This document shows, piece by piece, positions 23,738 to 60,429 of a stretch of 60,429 bases of DNA. This DNA comes from Bacillota bacterium. Its GTDB lineage: Bacteria > Bacillota > UBA4882 > UBA10575. Position numbers and translations under genes: made by a program. The stretch's first letter is position 1. Each line of letters begins with the position of its first letter. Location of the stretch: assembly GCA_012837715.1 (NCBI GenBank), contig DUQR01000001.1, positions 1 to 60,429 on the forward strand, given 5' to 3'. Under the pieces are notes generated by a model. It searched no databases. It saw only the letters and a list, made by a program, of their open reading frames with translations, and had not been told where the DNA came from.

Positions 23738-24922
23738 TTAATCGGATACACCAATATTCTCTTCAGTCTCGATAATTAAACGGTACTTCAGCACTCCCCC
23801 TTCAACGGTCCAACCTTGATCAACTCTTTCTGGTTGTACACCGGGAGGCAGCGCCAACCCGATTTTTTCCTCTCCTTTTTGTTCTGCCCGCGCCAGGGCG
23901 GTTTCGGGCGGAACCGGCATTGCTATCCACTCCACCGTTTGATAGGTATCCTTAATCAATTCGACCAAACCGGGCCCATTCCTTCCGGGCAAAATTGTCT
24001 TGACCGCCCGGGTTTGGCGGACTAGTCCCTCGGTTTGCCCACGCCTAAAAAGGGGCATTAACCGCCGGCCCAGGCGTAAACGGTACACCACCTTTTCTTT
24101 CCCGGTCGGTTTCGGCTCCCAAATGGTCAGCGGTTCCTCGATCTCCAGCTCATACCAGACCCGCGCACGCACTTCACCCGCAGCCTTCACCCTTTTCATC
24201 TCGAGGGAGCCATCCAAATGGCGCAGGCTGGTTTCACCCAAGATTAAAAGATCCCCGCGGGAGACCATATCCCCGACCCGGACCAGTGGGGTCCCGTCAA
24301 TCACCAAGATCCTGGTGATCAGCCCGTCCTTTCCTGCCACCAGATGACCACTTTTCTCCTCTGTCGCTGGCGGCCTTGTTTTCTCGACAATGGTCACCTG
24401 GGCAACTACCCCTTTTATCCCAATGGTAATCCAGACCGCTTCCGGCAGACGGATCCGCAGTTCCCGAATGAGCCAATCCCGTTTACCTTCGATTTTACGG
24501 CGGGATACACCGGGAGCAAGGCCTAAGGCCGCCAGTTCCCTTTGCAGGCGCGTAGGGTCGATCTGCTCAAGCCCACTAAGCTGGATAAACCAGATGAAAG
24601 AAGAAAGATTCAGTAACAAAAGGAAGAATAAGGCCATCCCCAGGAGCCAGCCTTTTTTCCGCCGTACCCTTTGCCATAAAAAAGGCCATCCTCTTCTCCA
24701 TAAAATCTTCCCCTTGGTCCGGGTCCGGAAAAAAAAGGGACGCAACAGCGGATACTGGCGGGCGTAAAGCTTAAAAAGAATGGTTCCTGGCGCTTTCCTT
24801 TGGATATCCCAGAAGACGACACCGGCGGCCAGGCCCCGGTTAATCAGTTCTTCACTGCGGTCCCCTTTTACCATGGCGACCAAATAACCTTGGGCGAAGG
24901 CGCCGAGGCGTTGGGAGATCAT
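23738..24922 (-). CDS. yqfD: Sporulation protein YqfD
   Basis: A 394-residue membrane protein of the YqfD family, needed for sporulation in Bacillus; its biochemical role is unknown. One transmembrane helix (about 93-113) follows an N-terminal cytoplasmic part, and the remaining extracytoplasmic region begins with IDPTRLQRELAALGL, a POTRA-like fold. The ATG overlaps the yqfC stop by 4 bp. Length matches the family. Confidence 0.92.
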   Translation of the reverse strand: MISQRLGAFAQGYLVAMVKGDRSEELINRGLAAGVVFWDIQRKAPGTILFKLYARQYPLLRPFFFRTRTKGKILWRRGWPFLWQRVRRKKGWLLGMALFFLLLLNLSSFIWFIQLSGLEQIDPTRLQRELAALGLAPGVSRRKIEGKRDWLIRELRIRLPEAVWITIGIKGVVAQVTIVEKTRPPATEEKSGHLVAGKDGLITRILVIDGTPLVRVGDMVSRGDLLILGETSLRHLDGSLEMKRVKAAGEVRARVWYELEIEEPLTIWEPKPTGKEKVVYRLRLGRRLMPLFRRGQTEGLVRQTRAVKTILPGRNGPGLVELIKDTYQTVEWIAMPVPPETALARAEQKGEEKIGLALPPGVQPERVDQGWTVEGGVLKYRLIIETEENIGVSD

Positions 24923-26690: not shown

Positions 26691-26800
26691 ACCACTCCCC
26701 TCCTGCCACCGTAAAAGAACATTCCCGGAGGCATAAATCATTCAGACTGGCATAAAAATCAGTGATCAGCTTGATTAAAAAGATACGGTGGTGAGCCTTG

Positions 26801-27535
26801 GTGCGTATAATCATCCTGCCCAAAAAGAAAATTTTATGCTGTCTTTATCTCTTGGGTATCCTGCTCACCGTTCCTCTGTTCTTCTCTTTTTTCCTCCGGA
26901 TTACCTCGGTCGGCGGCACCCTCAAGAAGACTACCATCCTGATTGATCCCGGCCACGGCGGGATCGATGGTGGCACCCAAGATCACCACGGCTATTTAGA
27001 AAAAGATATTAACCTGTCCATCGGGCTGAAACTCCGGGATCATCTCCGGCAAAGCGGTGTCAATGTCGTGATGACCCGCGAAGACGACCGGGAACTGGCT
27101 ACCTATCAACCGGGAGTCGGGGGAAGACACCGCCGGGATTTAAACACCCGAATCGAACAGGCGAAAAAGGCAAAAGCCCTCTTTCTGGTGAGTATCCATT
27201 GTGACTGGTCAACCGATCCGAAACGCCGCGGGATGGTTGCCTTTTATTATTACCGGAACCAAGCCGGAAAAGATCTGGCCTTTGCCATCCAAGAAGAGCT
27301 AAATAAGATTCAGCCGAACCCCCAGAAAGCCGCGCCGGGCAAATATTTCATTCTCGAGCAACCGGGGGTGACCGGCGTCATCGTCGAAGCCGGTTTCCTC
27401 TCCCATCCGGAAGAAGCTGCCCTCCTCCGGCAGGAGGAATACCAGAATAAGATTGCCTTCCACATCGCCCGCGGTGTGCTCCGGGTTTTGCCGAACCGCC
27501 TGGCCGACCAGGCTCCCGAGGTGTCCTCAGACTGA
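26801..27535 (+). CDS. cwlD: N-acetylmuramoyl-L-alanine amidase CwlD
   Basis: A protein of about 244 residues with an N-terminal membrane anchor (about 11-34) and an Amidase_3 domain. LIDPGHGGIDGG gives the first zinc His, EKDINL the catalytic or ligand Glu, VSIHCDW the second His, and VEAGFLSHPEE the C-terminal Glu. In spore formers CwlD starts muramic-delta-lactam synthesis in spore cortex. GTG at 26801 follows GGTGGTGAG; TTG one codon earlier is possible. It is divergent from cca and its end overlaps the convergent radical SAM gene by 9 bp. Confidence 0.93.
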   Translation: MRIIILPKKKILCCLYLLGILLTVPLFFSFFLRITSVGGTLKKTTILIDPGHGGIDGGTQDHHGYLEKDINLSIGLKLRDHLRQSGVNVVMTREDDRELATYQPGVGGRHRRDLNTRIEQAKKAKALFLVSIHCDWSTDPKRRGMVAFYYYRNQAGKDLAFAIQEELNKIQPNPQKAAPGKYFILEQPGVTGVIVEAGFLSHPEEAALLRQEEYQNKIAFHIARGVLRVLPNRLADQAPEVSSD

Positions 27536-40072: not shown

Positions 40073-41779
40073 TTAGCTGACTTCTGCTAGTTTCAGATCT
40101 TTTAAGACTAATTGCAATTGATTATTCCAGTCATTAAGCTCAAGGTTAAAGGCTAAATCCACCCTTTTGGCCCCTTCCAGCTCCTCCGTGGGGGCGCCGA
40201 AATTAAACCCAATAGCTTCCCAGGAGGCGCCGTCCTTCCCTACTTTCAGCTTGAGGTGTTTGGCATCCTTACCTACGCCATAACAGGCCAAAAGATTGAC
40301 ATCCCGGCAGACCAAGACCGGTTCCGGATTCCCTTCGCCGAAGGGGGTGAGGCGGGCCAGATCCGCCAGGAGGTCTTTGGTGAGCGCTTCCACCGGAATA
40401 TCCTCCTCCACTTCCAGCGCCGGAGTAAGGAGTTCCGGACTCAAGCGGGCGTCGGCCACCGCAATAAAGGCGGCTTTGAATTCAGCCAGCCGGTTCTTCT
40501 CCAGTTCTAGTCCAGCGGCGCATTCATGACCACCATATTTGATCAAACAGTCAGCACATTCTTCTAAGGCCTTAAAAAGGTGGAACCCGGGAATACTCCG
40601 ACCCGAACCGCGGGCCCTTTCCCCTTCCAAACTCAACAAGACTGTCGGTCGATAGTACTTATCGGCCAACCGGTTCGCCACGATCCCGATCACCCCGGGA
40701 TGCCAAGCCCCGGCTAACACCAAAGCCTTGTCCACCGCAGGGGACTGGGCAATTAAAGCTTCCGCTTCTTGCTGTACCTTTTCCTCGACCCGTTGCCGTT
40801 TTTGGTTCATGGTCTCCAACAAGGTGGCCAGTTTCCGGGCACGGGCCGGATCCTCTTCCAGAAAAAGACGGAGGGCAACCGTGGGATCACCCAACCGTCC
40901 GACCGCATTCACCCGGGGGCCCAGAATGTAACCAACATGACTTGCCGCCAGCTGCTTCCCGGCCAAACCCGTCTGGGCCAGTAACGCCTTCAGCCCGGTG
41001 TTGGCCGTATTGTTCATTTGCCGTAGCCCCTCTTTCACTAAAATCCGGTTTTCGCCCAACAGCGGAACAACATCGGCAATCGTCCCCAGCGCAACTAAAT
41101 CTATATTTTCCCATAAAACATTTTCCAACTCCGGTCGTTTCGCCGCTAAACCCTGGAGCAGCTTAAAAACCACTCCAACCCCGGCCAGTTGGGGATAGGG
41201 GTAAACCGAGGAAACTTTCGGGTTTAGCAACGCCGCTGCCGGTGGTAGTTGGGGGCCCGGTTCATGATGATCGGTCAGAATCAGGCGGACGCCCTTTTCT
41301 TGCAGGTAAGTCGCCTCGGTGATGGCGGTGATCCCGCAATCCGCCGTAATCACCAGTCGACATCCATATTTTACGGCTTTGGCCAAGACTTGTTGATGTA
41401 AACCATAACCTTCTTCCAATCTTTTCGGGAGGTAATAAAGGATATTACCGGTATTAAAGGGGCGGAGGGTCCGCAAGAGCAGCGCGACTGCGGTAATCCC
41501 GTCCACATCATAATCTCCGTAAATTAAGATCCGTTCCTGCCGTTCAAGAGCGGAAAAAAGCAACTCGACTGCTTCCTCCATCCCCGGAAGCAGAAAGGGG
41601 GATGGAAGATCCGCCCTCCCCCCTTGGAAGAAAAGGCGGACTTCCTCCCGGGTAGTAATCTTCCGTTTAGCAAGAAGCTTTCCCATTAAAGGAGTAAGTC
41701 CGAATTCGGCAAGTAACTCGGGGGGAAAGTGGTGCTCAACAGAACTAATTTTCCATTTCTTGGAATGGATCTTCTCCAC
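40073..41779 (-). CDS. recJ: Single-stranded-DNA exonuclease RecJ
   Basis: A 568-residue DHH-family 5'-3' exonuclease of DNA repair. IYGDYDVDGITAVALLLRTL (about 90-109) and VITADCGI with LTDHHEPG hold the DHH catalytic metal motifs, and GGHECAAGLELE is the DHHA1 motif. Length resembles E. coli RecJ; many Bacillota RecJ have a long C-terminal extension that is absent here. The GTG start lies inside the end of the LapA-like gene (35-bp overlap), so translation is probably coupled. Confidence 0.93.
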   Translation of the reverse strand: MEKIHSKKWKISSVEHHFPPELLAEFGLTPLMGKLLAKRKITTREEVRLFFQGGRADLPSPFLLPGMEEAVELLFSALERQERILIYGDYDVDGITAVALLLRTLRPFNTGNILYYLPKRLEEGYGLHQQVLAKAVKYGCRLVITADCGITAITEATYLQEKGVRLILTDHHEPGPQLPPAAALLNPKVSSVYPYPQLAGVGVVFKLLQGLAAKRPELENVLWENIDLVALGTIADVVPLLGENRILVKEGLRQMNNTANTGLKALLAQTGLAGKQLAASHVGYILGPRVNAVGRLGDPTVALRLFLEEDPARARKLATLLETMNQKRQRVEEKVQQEAEALIAQSPAVDKALVLAGAWHPGVIGIVANRLADKYYRPTVLLSLEGERARGSGRSIPGFHLFKALEECADCLIKYGGHECAAGLELEKNRLAEFKAAFIAVADARLSPELLTPALEVEEDIPVEALTKDLLADLARLTPFGEGNPEPVLVCRDVNLLACYGVGKDAKHLKLKVGKDGASWEAIGFNFGAPTEELEGAKRVDLAFNLELNDWNNQLQLVLKDLKLAEVS

Positions 41780-42137
41780 CTCCAGCTGCGTTTATCTTGG
41801 TGTCTGTTTCACCGGTTGTCTCGGCTATCAGATTTTCCCCGGGCGCAGTGGTCTGCGGTTCCGCTGAAGGTTCCTCCGTCCACTCCCCTTCTTCTGCGAC
41901 GGTCTCCCCATCCATCTTACCTTGATTCCGCGCTTTGAGCCGATCCTTGGTTCTATGGAGCAAACCAAGACTGCCTAAGGAAACCGCGCCAATTAAAATA
42001 CAGATCAGGATGACCAAACCGAAAGAGGCTTCGAATTGCCATTTCAAAAAATAAATCGTCACCGGATAAGCATTTTGCAAAGCAAAAATCGCCACTAAGA
42101 TCGCAAAGATCAACATGAGGATAAACATAAACTGCAT
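41745..42137 (-). CDS. LapA-domain (DUF1049) membrane protein
   Basis: A protein of about 130 residues with two transmembrane helices (about 3-25 and 38-60) in the LapA/DUF1049 pattern, containing ALQNAYPVTIYFLKWQFEAS between them. The rest is an acidic, Thr/Glu-rich cytoplasmic tail that is probably disordered. Function in Bacillota is not known; LapA proteins act in envelope assembly in Proteobacteria. ATG at 42137 follows GGAGGTG. It overlaps recJ by 35 bp. Confidence 0.8.
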   Translation of the reverse strand: MQFMFILMLIFAILVAIFALQNAYPVTIYFLKWQFEASFGLVILICILIGAVSLGSLGLLHRTKDRLKARNQGKMDGETVAEEGEWTEEPSAEPQTTAPGENLIAETTGETDTKINAAGGGEDPFQEMEN

Positions 42138-42303
42138 GGGGACACCTCCACTCTGCCGTGGTTTAAATGGCAAAAATAAGTAACAATCGCGTTCGGCCCG
42201 CAAACAGCGGTCATCTCAAAGCAGTACGCAAGGGCCTGACAATTCCTTAAAGTAGATCAGTTCGGTACAAACCAGCCATTTCCTGCCGGATGAAAAGATA
42301 GAA

Positions 42304-46503: not shown

Positions 46504-47268
46504 TTACAGGAAGTGCTGTCCGTAATAGACCACCAACCGGGCTTCGGCAAAGCTGGAAACCAAGAGAAACAGCAGACCGAAGATGAACACTTCCTTATCA
46601 TCCCCATACAACCGGGGCCAGCACCAGAACTTCCCTGCTTTCTCCCAAGAACTGTCCAGCAGTGAACTGGACTGGAGCCAAGTCCAATTGGCGGTGGACG
46701 CTAAAAGCAACGTATAGGAGAACCAAACCCAAAGCCCGAAACGGAGAAAGGTAACGAGCGCTCCCAGTCGGGTAAAGCCCTGGGCCGGATAGGCGTAGGA
46801 ATTGGTGCCGACAACAAAACCGGTTAAAATCGAATATAACAAGAAGTAAAACAGAGCTAACGGAAAACGACCAATCTTAAACCGGTTTAAGAAAAAGATA
46901 AAGAAAAGCACAATCAATAAATGGTGGACAAAGATCTTCCCGGTAACCAACAGCGTATTTCCCCAGGTGTCGACGAGCTCCGCGGTCTCGAATTCCCACT
47001 TGAAAAACGTGAAAGTACGGTTCGCTAAACCACTACCAAGATCAGTGACGCCTTTTACCCCAAAGATCTTATCCACCAGCAACGTGTTCTTAAAGGCGCC
47101 TTCTCCCAGGATGAAATAGCCGAGGACCCAAGCCAGGGCGAAGAAGAGAAGACCACAAAGGAGATAACCACCAACCCGGCGATAAACATCCTCACTAAAG
47201 ATCTGCTCTCCCAACCAGCGCAAAGGATATTTATGCTCTTTCGTTACATCTCTTTTTGTCTGTGCCAA
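46504..47268 (-). CDS. Polytopic membrane protein of unknown function
   Basis: A 254-residue protein with about six hydrophobic helices (near 35-55, 110-128, 133-152, 165-190, 230-248 and a weaker one). A non-hydrophobic loop lies between the first two. I do not recognise a family; the overall shape is loosely like SpoIIM-type proteins, but without a firm motif. The start is TTG after AAGGAGG. A promoter lies about 180 bp upstream and a terminator follows, so it is a single-gene unit. Confidence 0.7.
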   Translation of the reverse strand: MAQTKRDVTKEHKYPLRWLGEQIFSEDVYRRVGGYLLCGLLFFALAWVLGYFILGEGAFKNTLLVDKIFGVKGVTDLGSGLANRTFTFFKWEFETAELVDTWGNTLLVTGKIFVHHLLIVLFFIFFLNRFKIGRFPLALFYFLLYSILTGFVVGTNSYAYPAQGFTRLGALVTFLRFGLWVWFSYTLLLASTANWTWLQSSSLLDSSWEKAGKFWCWPRLYGDDKEVFIFGLLFLLVSSFAEARLVVYYGQHFL

Positions 47269-47587: not shown

Positions 47588-47625
47588 AAAGAGTTTGTAA
47601 TAAATTGAATAGCCACATAATTGAA

Positions 47626-47692
47626 CTCGTATAATCTCAGGGATATGGCCTGAAAGTCTCTACCAGATAACCGTAAATTATCTGACTACGGG
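47626..47692 (+). promoter_or_regulatory. Guanine riboswitch aptamer
   Basis: The sequence follows the purine riboswitch fold: P1 CTCGTA/TACGGG, the conserved TATAATCTCAGG, P2 with the loop GATATGG, GTCTCTACC, P3 CAGATAA/TTATCTG with CCGTAAA, and GACTA. The specificity base in GACTA is C (47686), which pairs with guanine or hypoxanthine; adenine aptamers have T. It lies 235 bp upstream of purE. Confidence 0.96.
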
Positions 47693-47770
47693 GGAAAGTG
47701 CGCCTAGGGTTCCGCCGCTTTTGCGGGCAGGTCCAAGTGGCGCAGGCACTTTGTGCTACACCGAAGGGAC

Positions 47771-47822
47771 AAAAGCCCAGCCGGGTAGGTTTCACTCCAC
47801 TAACCTACTTGGCTGGGCTTTT
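47771..47822 (+). terminator. Riboswitch-controlled terminator
   Basis: A long hairpin, AAAAGCCCAGCC...GGCTGGGCTTTT with inner GGTAGGTT/AACCTAC pairing, is followed by CATTTTT. It is the expression platform: guanine binding upstream should favour it and stop the pur operon. Confidence 0.9.
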
Positions 47823-47926
47823 CATTTTTCACCTGTCCGAACCACGGGCTTCCTGTATTGACCTTTGCTTTTTGGTGAAGACTCTGAACGGTCCAACAAT
47901 AAATCGCAAAAGGAGGAAATAAAAAA

Positions 47927-48457
47927 ATGGAAACCACTCCACTGGTGGGTATTGTCATGGGTAGTGATTCCGACTTACCCGTCATGAAAACTGCCGCGGA
48001 GATTCTGGAAGAACTGGATGTCCCTTACGAACTATCGATCCTTTCCGCTCACCGTACCCCAGCCCGGGTCGAAGCCTATGCCAAAGGAGCAGCCGGTCGT
48101 GGCCTCCGGGTGATTATCGCCGGGGCCGGTGGCGCCGCCCACTTAGCCGGGGTGATTGCCGCCTATACCGAATTACCGGTGATCGGCGTTCCGGTGCTGG
48201 GTAAGGCTTTCGGCGGGGCCGATGCTCTTTATTCCATCGTCCAGATGCCACCGGGCATCCCCGTGGCGACTGTTGGGGTGAACGGGGCGAAAAACGCCGG
48301 TCTCCTTGCCGTTGGGATTTTAGGGGTGGCCGAAGAAGCCTACCGCCGGAAAATACGGGATTACAAAAGCAAGCTAGCGCAGGAAGTCGAAGCCAAAGCC
48401 GCCCGGTTGGAAGCGGACGGTTGGCGGGCCTACCTAGCCACCATGGATCAATCTTAG
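47927..48457 (+). CDS. purE: N5-CAIR mutase / AIR carboxylase PurE
   Basis: A 176-residue enzyme at the carboxylation step of purine synthesis. GIVMGSDSDLP and SAHRTPARVEAYA hold the substrate-binding and catalytic residues, and AGAGGAAHLAGV and SIVQMPPGIPVATV follow. No purK lies next to it, so either it uses CO2 directly (class II) or purK is elsewhere. ATG follows AAGGAGG. It is the first gene under the guanine riboswitch. Confidence 0.95.
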   Translation: METTPLVGIVMGSDSDLPVMKTAAEILEELDVPYELSILSAHRTPARVEAYAKGAAGRGLRVIIAGAGGAAHLAGVIAAYTELPVIGVPVLGKAFGGADALYSIVQMPPGIPVATVGVNGAKNAGLLAVGILGVAEEAYRRKIRDYKSKLAQEVEAKAARLEADGWRAYLATMDQS

Positions 48458-48521
48458 AGAACCGGGCTTATAACCGCAAAGGGGAATTGCTCCCCACAAC
48501 AAAAGCACCGAGGTGAACAGA

Positions 48522-49814
48522 ATGATTGAGCGTTACTGTCGTCCGGAGATGGCGTCAATCTGGACTTTAGAAAACAAATTTCAGAAATGGCTGGAGATCG
48601 AGATCTACGCTTCTGAGGCTTGGTCGAAACTGGGTGTGGTTCCCCAAACCGCCGTCGAACGTCTCCGGGAAAAAGCGACTTTTTCCGTCCAACGGATTCA
48701 GGAGCTAGAAGCCGAAACCCGCCATGATGTGGTGGCTTTTACCCGCTGTGTCGCGGAGAATCTGGGGGATGAATCCAAATATCTCCACTACGGGCTCACT
48801 TCTTCCGATGTGGTGGATACGGCGCTAGCCGCCTTAATGACCGAAGCTGCCGCTCTCCTGGCCACCGGTATGGAACAACTGCTTACCGCTTTAAAGGCTA
48901 AAGCGCAGGAGCATAAATTTACCTTAATGATGGGGCGGACCCACGGCGTGCATGCCGAGCCAACGACCTTCGGACTGAAAATGGCTTTATATGTGGCCGA
49001 GATGCAACGGAACCGCACCCGGCTGGAACACGCCCGCGCCACCATCGCCCACGGTAAACTTTCCGGGGCGGTGGGCACTTTTGCCAATATCCCTCCCTTT
49101 GTCGAAGAGTATGTCTGTAAAAAGTTGGGCCTAAAGCCAGCCCCCATTTCCACCCAGATCCTGCAGCGGGACCGGCATGCCGAATTTATGATGACTTTAG
49201 CCATTACCGCCGGGACCTTGGAAAAACTGGCTACCGAAATTCGTGGCCTCCAGAAAACAGAAACCCGGGAAGTAGAAGAACCCTTTTATGCCGGGCAGAA
49301 AGGCTCTTCGGCCATGCCTCATAAAAGGAACCCGGTCAACTGTGAACAGATTTGTGGTCTGGCCCGGGTGGTGCGGGCTAATGCCATGGCCGCCCTGGAA
49401 AACATGGCCTTATGGCATGAACGGGATATCTCCCATTCCTCGGTGGAGCGGGTTATTATCCCCGACAGTACCATCCTTTTGGATTACATGTTGCACAGCA
49501 TGACACGGATTATTACCGATCTCCATGTCTATCCGGAGAGGATGAAACAAAATCTCGAACGCACCCTGGGGCTGACTTTCTCCCAGCGGGTCCTCCTTAG
49601 CTTAATTGATCAAGGAATGAAACGGGAAGCCGCTTACGATCTGGTGCAGAAAAACGCAATGCGGGCCTGGGCGGAACAGATCCCGTTCCAATCTTTACTG
49701 GCCGCCGACGCGGAAGTAACCGCGGTGCTCAGTGCGGAAGAGCTGTCGGCTTGTTTCGACCCAACTTACCATTTACAAAAGGTTGACGCGATCTTCGCCC
49801 GGGTTGGCATTTAG
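48522..49814 (+). CDS. purB: Adenylosuccinate lyase
   Basis: A 430-residue enzyme that releases fumarate from SAICAR and from adenylosuccinate. GSSAMPHKRNP (about 262-272) is the superfamily signature loop, and TSSDVVDTALA is another conserved part. ATG at 48522 follows GAGGTG; the frame has three extra codons upstream. It lies 64 bp after purE, at the place where purK and purB sit in Bacillus. Confidence 0.96.
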   Translation: MIERYCRPEMASIWTLENKFQKWLEIEIYASEAWSKLGVVPQTAVERLREKATFSVQRIQELEAETRHDVVAFTRCVAENLGDESKYLHYGLTSSDVVDTALAALMTEAAALLATGMEQLLTALKAKAQEHKFTLMMGRTHGVHAEPTTFGLKMALYVAEMQRNRTRLEHARATIAHGKLSGAVGTFANIPPFVEEYVCKKLGLKPAPISTQILQRDRHAEFMMTLAITAGTLEKLATEIRGLQKTETREVEEPFYAGQKGSSAMPHKRNPVNCEQICGLARVVRANAMAALENMALWHERDISHSSVERVIIPDSTILLDYMLHSMTRIITDLHVYPERMKQNLERTLGLTFSQRVLLSLIDQGMKREAAYDLVQKNAMRAWAEQIPFQSLLAADAEVTAVLSAEELSACFDPTYHLQKVDAIFARVGI

Positions 49815-49900
49815 GCCGAAGCCGACGTAAGCGACCACTTTTCGAAAGTATAACCCTGGCGGATTCCAATCTTTAAAGATATCGAAAGGAGCTGGTCCCC

Positions 49901-50614
49901 ATGGAAAAAAAAGCTTTACTCTACGAAGGAAAAGCAAAACGGATTTACACCACCGAAGACCCGGGTCTTCTCATTGCCGCCTACAAAGATGACGCCACCG
50001 CCTTTAATGGTCTGAAAAAAGGACAGATCGCCAATAAAGGCATTTTAAACAACAAGATTTCGGCCTTCTTCTTTACCTTGCTGGCCCAGGCCGGGGTCGA
50101 TAGCCACTTTGTCAAACTCCTTTCCGACCGGGAAATGTTGGTGAAAAAGGTGGAGATTATCCGGGTGGAAGTGGTGGTCCGTAATTATGCCGCCGGCAGT
50201 CTGGTTGAACGACTGGGCCTGGAAGAAGGACCCCCCCTCTCCCGGCCGGTCCTGGAATTCTACTATAAGAATGATGCCTTAGGCGATCCGCTGATCAACG
50301 AAGACCATATTGCCGTTCTGAACCTGGCCACCCCGGCCCAAGTCGGAATCATGGCCGACCAAGCCCTGACCATTAACGAAATTCTCACCCGGCATTTGCA
50401 AACCCGCAACCTTCTTTTGGTCGACTACAAACTGGAATTCGGTCTGCATCAAGGAAATGTGCTACTGGCGGATGAAATTTCCCCCGATACTTGCCGTTTC
50501 TGGGAGGCAACCACTGGCGAAAAACTGGATAAAGACCGTTTCCGCCGGGATCTCGGCGGAGTGGAAGAAGCTTATCAAGAAATATACCGGCGATTAACAG
50601 GAGGCGAAAATTAA
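49901..50614 (+). CDS. purC: SAICAR synthetase
   Basis: A 237-residue ATP-dependent enzyme joining CAIR and aspartate. [13 protein letters not shown] at the N-terminus and [13 protein letters not shown] and LVDYKLEFG are family signatures. ATG follows AAGGAG. The stop overlaps the purS start (TAATG). Confidence 0.96.
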
Positions 50615-50868
50615 TGTGGCGAGCAGAAATTAAAGTCTTATTGAAACCGAGTATCCTTGACCCTCAAGGGCAGGCGGCCGAGAAGGTTCTGGCGGCAATG
50701 GGCTACACTGAGGTGAACCAGGTGCGGGTCGGTAAATACCTGGAAGTAACCTTTAGCGCCCCCGACCGAACCAGCGCCGAAGCCAAGATACGAGAGCTGT
50801 GCTCCCGTTTGCTGGTCAACACGGTAATCGAAGGTTACACCTTTGAACTGGTGGAGGTTGCGCCATGA
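50614..50868 (+). CDS. purS: FGAM synthase subunit PurS
   Basis: An 84-residue small subunit that bridges PurL and PurQ in formylglycinamidine ribonucleotide synthase. ILDPQGQAAEKVLAAMGY and VRVGKYLEVTF are typical. AGGAGG precedes the ATG. It overlaps purQ by 4 bp. Confidence 0.95.
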   Translation: MWRAEIKVLLKPSILDPQGQAAEKVLAAMGYTEVNQVRVGKYLEVTFSAPDRTSAEAKIRELCSRLLVNTVIEGYTFELVEVAP

Positions 50869-51563
50869 AGTTTGGAATTATTGTCTTTCCCGGGTCCAGC
50901 GGGGACCTAGATGCCTATCATCTGATCAAAGATGTCCTGGACGCACCGGTCGAATATATCTGGCACGAAGCCAGTTCGGTCCAGGGCTTTGATTGCCTGA
51001 TTTTACCCGGCGGTTTCTCCTATGGCAATTACCTCCGCGGCGGCGCCCTGGCCAGCTGCTCCCCGATCATTCCGGCGGTGGTCGACTTTGCCCGCCGGGG
51101 CGGACTGGTCTTGGGGATTGCCAACGGCTTTCAGGTGCTCACCGAAGCCGGTCTCCTGCCGGGCGCCCTTTACACCAACGCCGACGGACGGTTCCATTGC
51201 CACTTTACCACCCTGCGGGTGGAGAATACAGATACTCCCTTCACCCGCAACCTCGGCCGGAACCAGCTGCTTTCCATCCCCATCGCGCATGGGGAAGGCA
51301 ACTATTATGTGGATCCGGCCACCTTGCAACAGCTGGAAGAAAGCGGTCAGATCGTCTTTCGTTATACAGATGAAAAAGGCCAGGTCACGGCAGAAGCCAA
51401 CCCCAATGGTTCGGTGGGCAACATTGCCGGGGTTTGTAATGAGACCCGGAATGTCCTGGGGATGATGGCCCATCCGGAAAGGGCGGGCGAGGCTGTTTTC
51501 GGCTCCATCGACGGTCTGGCTCTTTTCAATTCAATCTTAAAATACTGGGAGGGTAGCAAATGA
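50865..51563 (+). CDS. purQ: FGAM synthase glutaminase subunit PurQ
   Basis: A 232-residue class I glutamine amidotransferase. In typical PurQ the nucleophile motif is GICNGFQ; here [15 protein letters not shown] has Ala in place of the catalytic Cys. [11 protein letters not shown] holds the His and Glu of the triad. The missing Cys would block glutamine hydrolysis unless another nitrogen source is used; a base error is a second explanation. ATGA overlaps join it to purS and purL. Confidence 0.93.
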
Positions 51564-53755
51564 GACCAGAAGACTGGCGCAAAATGGGACTACGGGACGA
51601 TGAATATAAACGGATCAAAGAAGCCTTAGGACGGGAACCCAACCATTTGGAGCTGGGCATGTTCAGTGTCATGTGGTCGGAACATTGTTCCTATAAAAAT
51701 TCCAAAGCGGTGTTAAAAACCTTCCCCACCACCGGTCCGCGGGTTCTACAGGGTCCCGGAGAGAACGCCGGCGTGGTTGCGATCGGCGACGGGCTCGCCG
51801 TCTGCTTTAAAATCGAATCCCACAACCATCCGTCGGCGGTCGAACCTTACCAGGGGGCCGCAACCGGGGTTGGTGGGATTATCCGCGATATCTTCACCAT
51901 GGGGGCCCAGCCGATCGCGCTCCTTAATTCCCTGCGCTTTGGCCCCCTTCATGACGAACGGGTCCGTTATCTGTTTGAACAGGTGGTCGCCGGGATTGGC
52001 GGTTACGGCAACCGGATCGGAATTCCGACCGTCGGCGGTGAAATCTACTTTGACCCCTGCTATCAAGGAAATCCTTTGGTCAATGCTATGTGTGTCGGTC
52101 TCCTGGAAACGAACAAACTGCGGCTGGGGAAAGCGACCGGCATCGGTAACCCGGTGATTCTTGCCGGCGCCCGCACCGGCCAGGATGGGATGGGCGGCGC
52201 CACCTTTGCCTCGGTCGAACTAAGTGAAGAAACCGAAGCCCCCGACATCCAAGTGGGTGATCCCTTTACCGAAAAACTCCTCCTCGAAGCCTGCCTGGAG
52301 CTAATTGGCAACGGCGATGTGGACGGAATTCAAGACCTGGGCGCCGCCGGACTGACGTGTGCCGTCTCGGAGATGGCCAGCCGCGGCGGGACCGGGATGG
52401 ATGTTGAACTGTCCAAGGTTCCCTGCCGGGAAGAAGGCATGACGCCCTATGAAATTATGTTGGCCGAATCCCAAGAACGGATGCTGATGGTGGTGTCGCC
52501 GGAAAAAGAGGCGAAAGTCCATGCCGTCTTTAAGCGCTGGGGACTGACTTCCACCACCATTGGCCGGGTCACGGAAGGCGGAATGCTCACCATCCGGATG
52601 CACGGAGAGATCGTGGCCGAAATCCCCGCCCACAGTCTGGCCGAAGACGCCCCCGTCTACTATCCGGAAGCCCAAGAACCAGCCTACCTCAAGACCACGG
52701 CCGACTTGCCGCTGGCCACCATTGCCCTCCCTGAAGATTATAATACCGTACTGCTCAAACTGGTTGCTTCTCCCAATATTGCCAGCAAAGAATGGGTTTG
52801 GCAACAGTTCGATTATCAGGCCCGCACTGCAACCCTGGTCGGTCCAGGATCGGATGCGGCGCTGATCCGCATTCGCGGCACCAAAAAAGCCTTGGCCTTA
52901 ACGGCGGACTGTAATTCCCGCTATGTATACCTGGATCCCTATGCCGGGGGCAAAATTGCCGTCACGGAAGCCGCGCGCAATATCGTTTGCAGCGGCGGTG
53001 AACCCCTGGCGATCACCGACGGTCTCAACTTCGGCAGTCCGGAGAAACCAGAGATCTACTGGCAGTTCCAACAAGCGGTTGCCGGGATCAGCGAAGCCTG
53101 TCGCGTCCTTGAAACTCCCGTCACCGGTGGAAATGTCTCCTTCTACAATGAAGCCAACGGGGAAGGCATCTACCCCACTCCGGTCATTGGGATGGTCGGT
53201 TTATTGGAAGACGCCACCAAATACTGTACGCTATCCTTTAAAGCCGCAGGCGACCGCATTGTCCTCTTGGGTGAGAGCTTTGACGAACTCGGCGCCAGTG
53301 AATACCTGGCTCTGATTCACGGCCGGGTCCAGGGCAAACCACCGGCCCTTGATCTCAGCAAAGAAAAAGCCCTCCACCGCGTCGTCTTATCGGCGATCCG
53401 GGAAGGACTGGTCCGTTCCGCCCATGACCTCGCCGAAGGCGGGCTGGCGGTGGCTTTAGCCGAATGCCTCTTTGAAAAGGGGATTGGCGCCCGGATCCAA
53501 CTATCCAGCAACGGGCTGCGCCCGGACAGCCTACTCTTTGGGGAATCCCAGTCCCGGGTGGTGCTCTCCCTGTCCCCGGAGAAGCTTCCGGCCCTCGAAG
53601 CGCTGGCTGCTCAGGAAGGGGTCCCCTTCCAGGTAATCGGTGAGACCGGAGGAGATGAACTCCAAATCACCGTCGACGGTAACCAACGGCTTAACCTCTC
53701 AGTGGCGGAACTACAGGCCGCTTGGCAAGGAGGAATCCCATGCCATCTTTCCTAG
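51560..53755 (+). CDS. purL: FGAM synthase large subunit PurL
   Basis: A 731-residue small-form PurL, the ATP-dependent subunit that makes FGAM from FGAR with ammonia supplied by Pur[33 protein letters not shown] and [15 protein letters not shown] are family motifs. Length fits the PurLQS arrangement. The ATG overlaps purQ by 4 bp, and purF starts within its last 16 bp. Confidence 0.96.
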
Positions 53756-55179
53756 ACGAACTGCTCAATGACAAAATGACTGAAGAATGCGGTGTTTTCG
53801 GTCTTTATGCTCCTGGCGCCGATGTGGCCCGCCTCACCTATTACGGTCTTTATGCCTTGCAACACCGGGGACAGGAAAGCGCGGGGATTGCCGTGGCCGA
53901 CGGCCAAAAGATGGTGGGGTATAAAGGGCTCGGTCTGGTGGCGGAGGTCTTTGCCGATAGGAGTAAGCTGGAACAGATGAAAGGCCATCTGGCGGTAGGG
54001 CATGTCCGGTATGCCCCACGCGGTTATAATCTGCCCCTCAATGCCCAGCCCTTACTGGTTCGCTACCGGAACGGGTCGTTAGCCATTGCCCATAACGGTA
54101 ATCTTGTCAATGGCCAGCTCCTCCGGGAACAACTGGAAACGGAAGGTTCCATCTTTCAAACGACCACCGACAGTGAGATCATTGCCCATTTGGTCGCCCG
54201 CTCCGGGGAGAAAGATCTGACAACAGCATTAAAAAAATCTTTACCGCAGTTGCAGGGGGCCTATGCCTTTATCTTGATGACTCCGGAGCAGTTGATCGGG
54301 ATTCGCGACCCCCACGGTATTCGCCCCCTCTCCCTGGGCGAAACCGACTCCGGCTATGTGCTGGCCTCCGAGACCTGCGCCTTTGATACGATCGGGGCCA
54401 AATATCTCCGGGATCTCAAACCGGGAGAAATGGTGACCATTGATCAAAAGGGAGTGCGTTTTGAAACCTTTGCCCCACCGGCAAAGCACGCCATGTGCAT
54501 CTTTGAATACATCTATTTAGCCCGTCCCGACAGTAACTTGCTGGGCAAAAACGTGCACATGGTCCGTAAACGGTTAGGCCGCCGTTTAGCCCAAGAACAC
54601 CCGGTCGCCGCCGATATGGTTACCGGAGTGCCCGATTCTTCGCTTTCCGTTGCTTCCGGGGTGGCGGAACAGCTTGGTCTCCCCTATGAGATGGGGTTTG
54701 TGAAAAACCGTTACATCGGCCGGACTTTTATCCAACCATCACCCGAACTGCGCACCCTGGGCGTGCAACTAAAGTTGAATCCGGTCCGGCAAATCGTGGA
54801 AGGAAAACGGGTGGTCATGGTGGATGATTCCATTGTCCGGGGCACCACTTCCATTCATATTGTCGATATGTTGCGCAAAGCCGGTGCCAAAGAAGTCCAT
54901 GTCCTGATCAGTTCCCCGCCGGTGATTGCCCCCTGTTGCTACGGGCTGGACATCTCCTCTTCCGCGGAGTTAATCGCCGCCCGGATGAGCGTTCCGGAGA
55001 TCGCCAAAAGCATCGGCGCCGATTCGCTCGGGTTTTTAAGTAGGGAAGGCCTCTTGGCCTGTGTAGATCTGCCGGAGGAAGGGTTTTGCCAAGCCTGCTT
55101 CGACGGTTGTTACCCGCTAAAACCCTTCCCCAAAACGGACAAGGATGGGAGGTATGAGCACTATGGGTTACACCTATAA
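53740..55179 (+). CDS. purF: Glutamine PRPP amidotransferase
   Basis: A 479-residue enzyme of the first committed purine step. A propeptide of about 15 residues precedes EECGVFG, whose Cys is the N-terminal nucleophile after processing. [13 protein letters not shown] is the PRPP loop. Cysteines in [15 protein letters not shown] and GFCQACFDG match the [4Fe-4S] ligands of the Bacillus-type enzyme. ATG at 53740 follows AAGGAGG and overlaps purL by 16 bp. Confidence 0.96.
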
Positions 55180-56185
55180 AGCGGCGGGCGTGGATATCGA
55201 TGCCGGTAACCAAGCGGTCCGTCTATTGAAGAAACATACCCAGCGGACCCACCGCCCGGGCGTGTTAACAGAGATCGGCAACTTTGGCGGGCTTTTTGCC
55301 TTAAGCGGGCAATACCGGGAGCCGGTGTTGGTCTCCGGCACCGATGGTGTGGGCACCAAACTGAAAATTGCCTTTCTCATGGATAAACATGACACCATCG
55401 GTCAGGATGCGGTGGCGATGTGTGTCAATGATCTACTGGTCCACGGGGCCGAGCCCCTCTTCTTCCTGGATTACCTGGCCGTCGGCAAACTGGTTCCGGA
55501 GCGGGTGGCAGCGATTGTCGGCGGAATCGCCGATGGCTGTCAACTCGCCGGTTGCGCCCTCATTGGCGGAGAAACCGCGGAGATGCCCGGTTTTTATCCA
55601 GACAACGAATATGACCTGGCCGGTTTTGCCGTTGGGGTGGTTGAACGGAGCAAAATCATCGATGGCCGGGAAGTAAAACCGGAAGATGTAGTAATCGGCC
55701 TCCCTTCCACCGGCCTGCATAGCAACGGTTTTTCCCTCGCCCGGAAAATCCTCTTGGAGATAGCCGGCTTCCGCCCTGACACCTTCCTGCCGGAACTAGG
55801 CAAAACCTTGGGGGAAGAGCTGCTGACGCCGACTCGAATCTACGTGAAATCCCTGCTTAATCTCGTAACCCGGGTCCCGGTCAAAGCAATGGCCCACATC
55901 ACCGGCGGCGGTCTGCCGGAAAACCTTCCCCGCAGCCTACCGGAAGGTTTGGGCGTTATGCTGAACAAAAAAGCGTGGACGCCCCAGCCGGTCTTCACTC
56001 TGCTTCAACAGTTGGGTGATCTGACCGAAGCTGAACTTTATCGCACCTTTAACATGGGCATTGGTTTCGTCTGCCTCGTCGCCAAAGAGCATGCGGATCA
56101 GGCCTGTGCGGTGCTCCGGGAGAATGGGGAAAAACCGCTCATCATTGGTGAAGTAGTGACCAGTGACGGCGTACGCCTGGTCTAG
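55163..56185 (+). CDS. purM: AIR synthetase
   Basis: A protein of about 340 residues that cyclises FGAM to AIR with [31 protein letters not shown] and [12 protein letters not shown] are family signatures, and [13 protein letters not shown] is in the C-terminal half. ATG at 55163 is chosen because GGGAGG lies ten bases before it; ATG at 55154 is possible. It overlaps purF by 17 bp. Confidence 0.95.
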
Positions 56186-56205
56186 CCGGGAGAAGGAGGA
56201 TGAAG

Positions 56206-56832
56206 ATGTATAAGATCGCTGTCCTCGCCTCCGGGAACGGCAGTAATTTAGAGGCGATTTTAGAAGCGATCGAAAGCGGCCGGATCCAAAACGCCCGGGT
56301 AACGATAGTAATCAGTGACCAAGAAAAGGCCTATGCCTTAACCCGGGCCCAAAAGCACCGGATTCCCTCGGCTGTCTTTCGCAAAGCAGAGTATCCTTCA
56401 CGGGAAAGTTATGACCGCGCCCTGATCAATTACTTACAAGCCAAGCAGATCGATCTGGTGGTGTTGGCTGGCTTTATGCGCCTGGTCACCCCCGACTTTG
56501 TGGCGGCTTTCCCCAACCGGATCATGAATATCCACCCCTCACTGCTGCCGGCTTTCCCCGGTCGCCGTGGCGTGGCGGACGCCTTAGCCTATGGGGTTAA
56601 AGTTACCGGTTGCACCGTCCATTTTGTCGACGAAGGGATGGACACCGGTCCGATTATCCTCCAGAAAGCCCTCGCGGTCCGGGAGGATGATACCGTCGCC
56701 AGCCTACAGGAAAGGATTCATCGGCTTGAACATGTTCTTTACCCAAAAGCAATTGACTTGTGGGTGCGCGGTAAAATAAAGATTGAAGGAAGAAGGTGTT
56801 ACCTTGAACCAGAAGAAACTGGCCTTGCTTAG
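56206..56832 (+). CDS. purN: GAR transformylase
   Basis: A protein of about 208 residues that formylates GAR with 10-formyl-tetrahydrofolate. VLASGNGSNLEAIL at the N-terminus, GFMRLVTPDF and NIHPSLLPAFPG contain the catalytic Asn-His-Asp set with DEGMDTGPII. ATG at 56206 has better spacing from AAGGAGG than the one at 56200. It overlaps purH. Confidence 0.95.
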   Translation: MYKIAVLASGNGSNLEAILEAIESGRIQNARVTIVISDQEKAYALTRAQKHRIPSAVFRKAEYPSRESYDRALINYLQAKQIDLVVLAGFMRLVTPDFVAAFPNRIMNIHPSLLPAFPGRRGVADALAYGVKVTGCTVHFVDEGMDTGPIILQKALAVREDDTVASLQERIHRLEHVLYPKAIDLWVRGKIKIEGRRCYLEPEETGLA

Positions 56833-58348
56833 TGTCTGGGATAAAACCGGAATTGTTGATTTTGCCCGCGGTCTGGTCGAACAGGGGTTTACCTTGATCT
56901 CCACCGGCGGTACGGAACAGACTTTACAAGCAGCGGGTCTGCCCGTCCAAAGCGTAGCCCAAGTGACGGGGTTCCCCGAAATCCTCGACGGCCGGGTTAA
57001 AACCCTCCATCCTAAGATTCACGGGGGCATTCTCGCCCGTCGGGAACTGGAAACCCACCGTCAGCAAATGGAGAAGTATGATATTCCTTCCATCGAAGTG
57101 GTCGCCGTCAATCTTTACCCCTTTGCCGCGACCGTAGCCAAAGCTGGAGTGACCATGGAAGAAGCAATTGAAAATATTGATATCGGCGGACCGACCATGG
57201 TCCGGGCTGCCGCTAAAAATTACCGCCAGGTGACGGTCGTCGTTAATCCGGACCGCTATCCGGAGATCCTGCAGGAACTGGCGGAAAAAGGAAACACCAC
57301 CGAAGCGACCCGCTTTGCTTTGGCGGTGGAAGCTTTTAACCATACCGCCTACTATGATTCGTTAATTACCCGCTGGTTGGCGGCGCAGACCAAGGAAAGT
57401 CCGTTGTTTCCGGAGACTTTGGTGCTGCCCTACACCAAGGTGGAAACCTTACGTTACGGTGAAAACCCCCACCAACAGGCCGCCTTTTACCGGGAACCCC
57501 AAGCGGCCCCGGGGACCGTTGCTGCCGGTAAACAATTGCACGGGAAAGCTCTCTCCTTTAATAACCTCAATGATCTGAACGCCGCCTGGGAAATGGTCCT
57601 GGAGTTTGAAGAACCGGCCGCCGTCGCCGTCAAGCACACCAATCCCTGTGGGATCGCAGTCGGCGAGGACCTTTATACGGCTTTTACCCGGGCTTATGAA
57701 GCGGACCCGGTTTCGATCTTCGGCGGGATTGTGGCGGTCAACCGACCCTTGGATGCCCGCACCGCCGAAAAACTGAGTGCGATTTTCCTGGAAGTGATCA
57801 TTGCCCCCGCCTTCAGCGACGAAGCCCTGGCGATCCTGACCCGGAAAAAGAACCTGCGGCTCCTGGAGATCCCGCTTCCGGAACAACGGGAGACGCTTGA
57901 GCTGAAAAAGGTCTCCGGCGGGTTACTCCTGCAGACTTTAGAACCGACCGCGATTAGTTCTGAAGGATGGCAAACGGTCACCGAAAAAGAGCCTACCCCC
58001 AGCCAACTGGCAGATATGGTTTTTGGCATGAAAGTGGTAAAGCATGTTAAATCTAACGCCATTGTCCTCGTGAAAGACGGCCAAACCATCGGGATTGGCG
58101 CCGGACAGATGAACCGGGTCGGAGCCGCCCGGATCGCCGTTGAACAGGCGGGCGCGAAAGCTGCCGGCAGTATCTTGGCGTCCGATGCTTTCTTCCCCTT
58201 CCGGGATACGGTCGATGTGGCCGCCGCCGCCGGGGTAACCGCCATTGTCCAGCCGGGTGGTTCGGTCCGGGACGAAGAATCGGTCGCCGCCTGTAATGAA
58301 CTGGGTCTTGCCATGGTCTTCACCGGAATCCGTTACTTCAAACATTGA
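56804..58348 (+). CDS. purH: Bifunctional AICAR transformylase / IMP cyclohydrolase
   Basis: A protein of about 514 residues for the last two steps to IMP. The N-terminal MGS-like IMP cyclohydrolase (about 1-195) has LLSVWDKTGIVDFA, STGGTEQTL and GRVKTLHPKIHGGIL. The C-terminal transformylase has VKHTNPCGIAVG and DAFFPFRDTVD. The start is taken as TTG at 56804 after AGAAGGTG; the frame extends to 56783. It overlaps purN by 29 bp. Confidence 0.94.
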   Translation: MNQKKLALLSVWDKTGIVDFARGLVEQGFTLISTGGTEQTLQAAGLPVQSVAQVTGFPEILDGRVKTLHPKIHGGILARRELETHRQQMEKYDIPSIEVVAVNLYPFAATVAKAGVTMEEAIENIDIGGPTMVRAAAKNYRQVTVVVNPDRYPEILQELAEKGNTTEATRFALAVEAFNHTAYYDSLITRWLAAQTKESPLFPETLVLPYTKVETLRYGENPHQQAAFYREPQAAPGTVAAGKQLHGKALSFNNLNDLNAAWEMVLEFEEPAAVAVKHTNPCGIAVGEDLYTAFTRAYEADPVSIFGGIVAVNRPLDARTAEKLSAIFLEVIIAPAFSDEALAILTRKKNLRLLEIPLPEQRETLELKKVSGGLLLQTLEPTAISSEGWQTVTEKEPTPSQLADMVFGMKVVKHVKSNAIVLVKDGQTIGIGAGQMNRVGAARIAVEQAGAKAAGSILASDAFFPFRDTVDVAAAAGVTAIVQPGGSVRDEESVAACNELGLAMVFTGIRYFKH

Positions 58349-58438
58349 TTCACTAAAAGGAGCCCTCAAAGAGGAAACGAAGCCATCTGATCCGTAAAAA
58401 ATTTGTTCCGATGAAGAGCAGCCAAGGAGGGAAAGAAG

Positions 58439-59734
58439 ATGCGGATTTTAATCGTCGGCAGCGGTGGACGGGAGCATGCCCTCGCCTGGAAGCTGAAACA
58501 GAGCCCCCGGGTGAGCCAAATCTACTGTGCTCCCGGCAACGCCGGGATTGCTGAAATTGCCCAGTGTATTAATATTAATGTTGAAGAGATTGAGCGCTTG
58601 GTCGGCTTTGCCCGGGAACACCAGATCGAGCTGACGGTCGTCGGCCCGGAAGCGCCGCTTGCCGCCGGGATTGTCGATGCCTTTAACGGCGCGGGACTGC
58701 CCATCTTTGGTCCGGTAAAAGCCGCCGCCCGTCTCGAAGCCAGTAAAATCTTTGCCAAAGAGTTGATGAGAAAATACCAAATTCCCACGGCGGAAAGCCG
58801 GACCTTTACCGAAGCGGAACAGGCTATGGCCTACATTAGAAGCAAAGGCGCGCCCCTTGTCGTCAAAGCGGACGGACTTGCCAGTGGGAAAGGGGTCGTG
58901 GTGGCCAAGACCGTCGCCGAAGCGGAAGAAGCCGTCCGGCGGATGCTGGTTGCGGCGGAATTCGGTCCGGCTGGCGCCCGGATCATCGTCGAGGAGTTCC
59001 TCACCGGTGAAGAAGTTTCCGTGCTCGCCTTTACCGACGGGACCACCGTCATCCCGATGGTCTCGGCCCAAGACCATAAAGCCGTCTATGATCAGGATCA
59101 GGGTCCAAATACCGGCGGGATGGGCGCCTATTCACCTGCGCCCGTCCTGACCCCGGAACTTCTGCAACAGGTGGAAAGGGAAGTTTTGCAGCCGACCATC
59201 GCCGGTCTCCGGCAGGAAGGAATTATCTACCAGGGTATCCTCTATGCCGGGCTCATGATTACCGCAGAAGGACCGAAAGTCCTGGAATACAATGTCCGTT
59301 TCGGCGATCCGGAGTGCCAAGTTATTCTCCCCCGGCTCGAAAGTGACCTGGTGGAGATCATGTTGGCGGTGATCAACCGGAAACTGGCCGGCCAAACCAT
59401 CACCTGGCACGAGCACCACGCCGCCTGTGTGGTCATGACCTCCGCCGGTTATCCCGGCCCTTATCAACAAGGGAAAATCATCACCGGTCTGGCGGAAGCA
59501 GCGGCTTTACCGGAAGTCTATGTCTTCCATGGAGGCACCTCCGCCCACGGTTCCCACCTGGTGACTGCCGGCGGCCGGGTTTTGGCCGTCACCGCGTGGG
59601 GTAAGACCCTCGAAGCCGCCCTGAACAAAGCCTATCAGGGAGTGTCCACCATCAAGTTCGACGGCGCCCATTACCGGACCGACATCGGCCACCGGGCCAT
59701 AAAAGCTGGCGCTATTTCCTTAGCAAGCAGATAA
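58439..59734 (+). CDS. purD: GAR synthetase
   Basis: A 431-residue ATP-grasp ligase joining phosphoribosylamine and glycine. MRILIVGSGGREHALAWKL at the N-terminus, VVKADGLASGKGVVVA, and EYNVRFGDPECQ are signatures. ATG follows AGGAGGG. It ends the operon; purH lies 90 bp upstream. Confidence 0.96.
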   Translation: MRILIVGSGGREHALAWKLKQSPRVSQIYCAPGNAGIAEIAQCININVEEIERLVGFAREHQIELTVVGPEAPLAAGIVDAFNGAGLPIFGPVKAAARLEASKIFAKELMRKYQIPTAESRTFTEAEQAMAYIRSKGAPLVVKADGLASGKGVVVAKTVAEAEEAVRRMLVAAEFGPAGARIIVEEFLTGEEVSVLAFTDGTTVIPMVSAQDHKAVYDQDQGPNTGGMGAYSPAPVLTPELLQQVEREVLQPTIAGLRQEGIIYQGILYAGLMITAEGPKVLEYNVRFGDPECQVILPRLESDLVEIMLAVINRKLAGQTITWHEHHAACVVMTSAGYPGPYQQGKIITGLAEAAALPEVYVFHGGTSAHGSHLVTAGGRVLAVTAWGKTLEAALNKAYQGVSTIKFDGAHYRTDIGHRAIKAGAISLASR

Positions 59735-59852: not shown

Positions 59853-60149
59853 CTAATCCGGCATTTTTTGATAGGACCGGATCATATTATCCACCAGTCC
59901 CAAACCGGGATCTTTCGCTAATTCCTTAGCCAGGGCTTCGGCAAAGAGACCACGGAAATAATCACCCTGGAGGCCTTGGCCAAAAAGGTTGGTCTCGCCT
60001 TGTAACATGGTCTCGACCATCTTTTGCAGGAGGATCGCCTCAAATTCCTGGCACTTCTCTCTTAACTGCCGTTCCTCCTCAGTTAAGGCCTTGTTTTCCT
60101 TCGACGCCGGGGTATAGGGTCTTCCCGGCAGATGAGGATCGATTTTCAT
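59853..60149 (-). CDS. flgJ: FlgJ-type rod-binding protein (N-terminal domain only)
   Basis: A 98-residue protein matching the rod-binding half of FlgJ: CQEFEAILLQKMVETML followed by GDYFRGLFAEALAKELA and GLGLVDNMI. The peptidoglycan hydrolase domain of gammaproteobacterial FlgJ is absent, as in most other bacteria. It helps flagellar rod assembly in the cell wall. It follows the flgI end by about 90 bp on the same strand. ATG follows AAAGGGAG. Confidence 0.88.
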   Translation of the reverse strand: MKIDPHLPGRPYTPASKENKALTEEERQLREKCQEFEAILLQKMVETMLQGETNLFGQGLQGDYFRGLFAEALAKELAKDPGLGLVDNMIRSYQKMPD

Positions 60150-60239: not shown

Positions 60240-60429
60240 TTATCGAATCTCCAAAACCCCATATAAGGCCCCTGCCTGGTCAATAGCAATAATCAAATTG
60301 ATAATATCCTGGGGCGTAGCGCCAACCGCATTTAAAGCCCGGACAATTTCCGCCAGGGACGTCCCGGCCGGTAAAGCCACCAAAGAACCGCCCTCTGCCG
60401 TCACCTCCAGGTTTTCTTCGGTTCCGACC
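60240..60429 (-). CDS. flgI: Flagellar P-ring protein FlgI, C-terminal end (partial)
   Basis: The frame runs off the right edge; 63 residues to the stop at 60240 are visible. TSLAEIVRALNAVGATPQDI followed by a segment ending in AGALYGVLEIR closely follows the C-terminus of FlgI. FlgI forms the P-ring around the flagellar rod in the periplasm of bacteria with an outer membrane. The adjacent flgJ-type gene supports the flagellar assignment. Confidence 0.85.
   Translation of the reverse strand, partial: VGTEENLEVTAEGGSLVALPAGTSLAEIVRALNAVGATPQDIINLIIAIDQAGALYGVLEIR

Follow-up and report, generated by a model that had tools for sequence, protein, structure and literature searches.

The window, which is the whole stretch of 60,429 bases analysed here, ends in the 3' part of a flagellar P-ring gene. 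With a probability of about 0.93, we read this gene as part of a vertically inherited flgA-flgH-flgI set that sits between flgG and flgJ in a spore-forming member of the Bacillota with an LPS-type outer membrane. The P-ring is built of FlgI, which is secreted and, with FlgA as its chaperone, assembled into a ring around the rod, with FlgH above it. In this organism, secreted FlgI would close as the P-ring around the periplasmic rod with the help of FlgA, and FlgH would be stacked on it as the L-ring, letting the rod pass the outer membrane. We infer ring assembly, motility and the outer membrane itself from the genes, their order, their co-occurrence across genomes and the FlgI tree. Some caution about a working flagellum is advisable, because a Limnochordia strain carrying flagellar genes is reported to be immotile in culture (PMC11456536). 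The genome thus represents a further two-membraned, spore-forming lineage, and bears on the long-standing question of whether the Bacillota descend from a two-membraned ancestor and by what route the outer membrane disappeared.

The reading frame at the edge of the window (Table 1) is open up to the end of the contig, and its 189 bases encode the final 62 residues of FlgI together with the stop codon; since the window is the entire contig C8, the gene is truncated there. The match of the fragment to Pfam PF02119 (E 1.4e-12; 47.6 bits, cut-off 25.3) covers positions 286-343 of the 343-position profile, and its identity to the C-termini of five FlgI proteins of the same genus or family is 81-89% (85-89% within the genus). 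A full-length copy from the same genus scores 366.6 bits against the cut-off of 300 for NF003676, and the identification of the visible C-terminus as FlgI in the preliminary description is thereby borne out. Compared with four same-genus copies, the fragment differs at 24-29 synonymous and 6-7 non-synonymous codons (63 compared), with 26-33 third-position differences; judged against these copies, it is under purifying selection. The next gene downstream is the flgJ-type gene, whose product matches the N-terminal part of TIGR02541 (residues 13-89 of 294), below the cut-off.

Table 1. Features of the window discussed in the text, with the basis of each assignment.
Feature	Position	Strand	Basis
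YqfD-like sporulation protein	23738..24922	-	TIGR02876, E 2.2e-68, 231 bits, below cut-off 256.7
CwlD-like spore amidase	26798..27535	+	TIGR02883, E 2.1e-53, 181 bits, below cut-off 221.6
Polytopic membrane protein, 254 aa, conserved	46504..47268	-	About five hydrophobic helices
Purine operon purE ... purD	47927..59734	+	Open reading frames; gene names assigned by sequence recognition
flgJ-type rod-binding protein, 98 aa, without muramidase domain	59853..60149	-	PF10135, E 1.2e-7
flgI 3' end, P-ring protein	60240..60428	-	PF02119; alignment with full-length relatives; mostly synonymous differences

The remainder of the operon was located by searching the contigs of the window's genome (2.435 Mb in 53 contigs, 98.7% complete) at the DNA level with the homologous locus of G004, a genome of the same genus. 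Two contigs matched: C14 covers the locus from spoIID as far as the beginning of flgH, and C8 covers it from flgI on. The end of C14 reads spoIID-M23-spoIIID-mreB-flgF-flgG-flgA, followed by the first 14 codons of flgH, and flgJ stands beside flgI on C8. The preliminary description had pointed beyond the contig edge to flgA and flgH; flgA complete and the start of flgH are both present on C14 of the same genome. If the two contigs are colinear with G004, a gap of about 1.5 kb falls inside flgH-flgI. A FlgH profile search of the window's genome gave no match, only the 14 codons at the end of C14 being present. As C14 stops within flgH and C8 resumes in flgI, the lack of flgH and of most of flgI most likely reflects an assembly gap, rather than a loss. 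Each of the other 15 family members sampled has FlgI, at full length save for a contig-split copy in G002.

A partial gene at the end of a contig, in a binned assembly of 53 contigs, could also signal contamination, with flgI and its contig coming from a Gram-negative organism. We consider this very improbable and reject it, as the conserved neighbourhood speaks against it: flgJ and purD are arranged as in same-genus genomes, the fragment is close in identity to the FlgI of its own genus, and the matching half of the operon lies on C14 beside spoIIID. Besides, the stated contamination figure is 0.03%, and every sampled genome of the family contains both Omp85 and LpxC.

Two stretches of the window's genome carry outer-membrane genes. 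One, on C16, encodes TamB, BamA (with POTRA and Omp85 domains), OmpH, LpxD and one LptF/G protein; the other, on C3, encodes a distant LpxB relative, LpxC, FabZ, LpxA, LpxI, an LptA-like protein, LptB and a second LptF/G protein. BamA has 605 aa (Omp85 E 5.9e-33; POTRA E 9.9e-21) and scores below the TIGR03303 cut-off. Among the lipid A genes, LpxC, LpxD and LpxI are clear, LpxA is recognized through its C-terminal domain and hexapeptide repeats, and the LpxB candidate matches weakly, and to a related protein only. As for LPS export, LptB lies above its cut-off, the LptA-like matches lie below the NCBIfam cut-off, and the profile searches identified no LptD in this genome. Sporulation is represented by SpoIVA (E 1.9e-112), by SpoIIID and SpoIID, both above NCBIfam cut-offs, and, in the window, by the CwlD-like and YqfD-like proteins, whose matches are near full-length though below NCBIfam cut-offs. 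The spore genes noticed earlier in the window are thus joined by others in the genome, and the suggestion of a diderm Bacillota lineage, to be sought through bamA, lpx and other outer-membrane genes, is supported by this combined set, for a kind of lineage that had already been described. The gene content supports a spore-forming member of the Bacillota with a predicted LPS-type outer membrane. The genome also encodes two BamA-like proteins of 605 aa each, in different neighbourhoods on C16 and C17 (10232-12049 in L049 and 12323-14140 in L048), with shorter Omp85 matches elsewhere. In the window, a protein with a LapA (lipopolysaccharide assembly protein A) domain is encoded at 41745-42203 (-).

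The association between FlgI and outer-membrane markers was followed in 61 genomes (that of the window and 60 relatives), in which a FlgG-like rod protein was called at E <= 1e-20; these and the following counts are over related genomes, and do not represent independent events. FlgI was found in 34 genomes, FlgH in 31, Omp85 in 36, LpxC in 35, SpoIVA in 54, LolA in one and FlgG in 54. All 34 FlgI-containing genomes have Omp85, LpxC and FlgG, none has LolA, and 32 have SpoIVA (the exceptions are G023 and G056); neither Omp85 nor LpxC was found in any of the 20 genomes with FlgG and without FlgI. Across 398 genomes of the phylum, 87 have FlgI and 103 have Omp85 (one of these, G261, by a match of only E 6e-4); 86 have the two together and one has FlgI alone. 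A Fisher value was computed as well, but as it treats related genomes as independent it is not taken as a probability here. LolA matches occurred in nine of the 398, none of them with FlgI or Omp85. The single genome with FlgI and no Omp85 match, G369, is what one would expect of a monoderm keeping the P-ring for another use, such as fitting a thick wall. We reject such a use, which retains almost no credibility given the outer-membrane genes in the same genome (BamA, Lpx and Lpt) and the near-total co-occurrence of FlgI and Omp85; the G369 assembly, of 320 contigs, reaches 91% completeness, and Omp85 was found in five further members of its genus, g138, in the sample.

Two genomes of the sample, G017 and G018, have Omp85 but no match to either FlgI or FlgG, and are probably without flagella, since the rod protein is unmatched. 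In G017, from the same class as the window, LpxC is also unmatched, and this organism may possibly have an outer membrane lacking both LPS and flagella. FlgI is present without a FlgH match in G024 and G028, of one genus (loci L029 and L030, 464-2511). In G024 flgA and flgI are separated by a run of N, and its missing FlgH match is therefore uninformative; in G028, at 72% completeness, 17 bases separate the end of flgA from the flgI frame, and no remnant of FlgH gave a score. This genus might have a P-ring without an L-ring, or the assemblies may be incomplete.

The order of genes is equally constant. Among 22 FlgI-containing loci, that of the window's genome included, all 21 uncut by a contig end read flgF-flgG-flgA-flgH-flgI-flgJ, and spoIIID lies upstream on the same strand in 14 of the 22, mostly with mreB in between. 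In loci from named diderms, flgG was found in 12 of 13, and those 12 all read flgG-flgA-flgH-flgI-flgJ; spoIIID-mreB precedes the block in UBA5324, Pelosinus and Limnochordaceae, and mreB alone in six Selenomonadaceae loci. For comparison, 20 loci around the best FlgG match were taken from genomes without FlgI. Eight of them read spoIIID-mreB-flgF-flgG, seven have flgJ directly after flgG (10-280 bp), ten have neither feature, and five have both (G048, G054, G033, G039 and G032, from five families). In these five, which belong to families without outer-membrane markers, the order is spoIIID-mreB-flgF-flgG-flgJ, with flgG and flgJ 13-41 bp apart; the locus is therefore that of the diderms minus exactly flgA-flgH-flgI. 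The block of the ring genes thus recurs minus precisely three genes in relatives without outer-membrane genes, so the proposed loss can be read as a local deletion, and the neighbourhood becomes added evidence on ring loss in one-membraned relatives. In Bacillus subtilis, the corresponding order is presumably spoIIID-mbl-flhO-flhP.

The flgFGAHIJ cluster of diderm Bacillota had been described, and excision of flgAHI proposed, by Antunes et al. (2016; PMC5007114), who also noted remnants of flgJ in two species. The fixed spoIIID-mreB anchors, with no occurrence in the available main text of that paper, and the short flgG-flgJ junctions are what is added to it here. Our literature search, which mostly covered papers outside subscription, found no statement for Bacillota on spoIIID together with mreB, flgF and flgG, and one may be in print.

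The origin of FlgI was addressed with a tree of 94 proteins, built by a quick method without bootstrap and with SH-aLRT support, from which frames below 330 aa and Pseudomonas rows beyond two were left out. A branch with SH-aLRT 96 divides it: all 43 Bacillota rows fall on one side, joined by a single row each from Armatimonadota and Atribacterota and by an unassigned row; the opposite side holds Pseudomonadota, Thermodesulfobacteriota, Myxococcota, Nitrospirota, Acidobacteriota and others. The class of the window forms a single clade with support 100, and is represented by its relatives because the fragment of the window is too short. The deeper order within the Bacillota side is without resolution. 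Gain of the ring genes by horizontal transfer from a proteobacterium could draw on this deep branching and on the three rows of other or unassigned affiliation that fall among the Bacillota; it is set against the supported branch parting Bacillota FlgI from the phyla named, the single clade of the class, the flgF-G-A-H-I-J order common to distant Bacillota families, and FlgH proteins lacking the lipobox and linker seen in the proteobacterial type. Transfer is accordingly rejected as improbable, and the tree favours vertical inheritance.

FlgH itself deserves separate attention. None of 40 Bacillota FlgH proteins (28 from relatives and 12 from named organisms), relatives of the window's genome included, has a lipobox; they consist of a short secretion signal followed directly by the ring domain. 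A lipobox and a longer linker are present in all 46 from Pseudomonadota, Thermodesulfobacteriota, Myxococcota and Nitrospirota. Elsewhere, the lipobox was found in none of three Acidobacteriota, none of the single Armatimonadota, Atribacterota and Methylomirabilota rows, and in two of five unassigned rows; as lipobox-free FlgH also occurs in other phyla, the split is not simply one of Bacillota versus all others. These counts, in which signal-peptide type was assigned by a simple script and not by a trained predictor, use a lipobox rule set after the results of a stricter pattern were known; the latter missed several proteobacterial lipoboxes that are counted here, and picked out cysteines in three Bacillota rows (L021, L054 and L126), which were left uncounted since their position is within the hydrophobic stretch or ahead of it. 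Eight duplicate loci were dropped, from the FlgI tree as well, and rows L067, L068, L074, L107 and L127 were set aside.

Here FlgH is likely cut by an ordinary signal peptidase and not lipidated. Lipobox-free FlgH and the absence of LolA from FlgI-containing genomes together suggest that the L-ring of diderm Bacillota is probably without a lipid anchor. Such a pattern fits the view of a review in which diderm Terrabacteria have no outer-membrane lipoproteins and also lack Lol, save a Halanaerobiales-type lineage (PMC11784454); Halanaerobiales are said to have Lol (PMC11784454; PMC5007114). FlgH does not occur in the available text of that review, and a FlgH without lipobox offers a direct test of the published claim that these diderms are devoid of outer-membrane lipoproteins. 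Our literature search, with subscription papers mostly beyond its reach, found no statement of Bacillota FlgH as a non-lipoprotein, which may be in print. Tentatively, and at somewhat less than even odds, these observations may be joined into one account: the L-ring would be free of an anchor for want of Lol, the short FlgH would be the older form, to which lipobox and linker were added in the other branch together with Lol, and the monoderm order spoIIID-mreB-flgF-flgG-flgJ would be the scar of an excision of flgAHI. On this account, the flagellum of these spore-formers would cross the outer membrane, or stop beneath it, by a lipoprotein-independent arrangement.

Several known systems come close to that described here. 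The Negativicutes and Halanaerobiales cluster has the same six genes, flgF-G-A-H-I-J, in genomes with LPS and BAM genes, and the history given for it, with ring genes lost upon loss of the outer membrane, is the same as proposed here (PMC5007114); in contrast, the window's genome belongs to another class of Bacillota, and its family keeps spoIIID-mreB upstream. Limnochordia are likewise described as deep diderm, spore-forming Bacillota with outer-membrane clusters and flagellar genes (PMC11456536; PMC11448272), although the FlgI of the window's class is not specifically sister to the single Limnochordaceae row in the tree (L126). In sequence searches against solved L- and P-rings (PDB 7bgl, 8z5n, 9ydo and others), FlgI aligns over nearly its whole length, while Bacillota FlgH aligns over the ring-forming domain and is shorter in front: position 22 of the FlgH profile, which falls close to where its signal peptide ends, pairs with residue 48 or 79 of the matched chain, and in 7bgl residue 63 pairs with position 34. 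Salmonella FlgH is reported as a lipoprotein, its acyl chains packed around the L-ring, and that of Helicobacter pylori as a non-lipoprotein; in H. pylori the L-ring lies below the outer membrane and the flagellum is sheathed (PMC11756786), neither feature being known from Bacillota.

Farther into the window, at 46504..47268 (-), lies the gene of a 254-aa membrane protein that has no family in Pfam or NCBIfam and a poor AlphaFold model (mean pLDDT 44.8). In 18 genomes of the class a relative is encoded downstream of flgJ, directly so where no other gene intervenes, and none was found in the examined loci outside the class; the protein may be a partner, specific to this class, of the flagellar or the spore locus. 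In the window it is separated from flgJ by the purine operon, which is convergent with flgJ; a purine riboswitch lies upstream of purE-purD, and riboswitch and operon together span 47607-59734 (+). The gene purD also adjoins flgJ in G003, G004, G005 and G007, while G001, another genome of the genus, retains the membrane protein gene beside flgJ.
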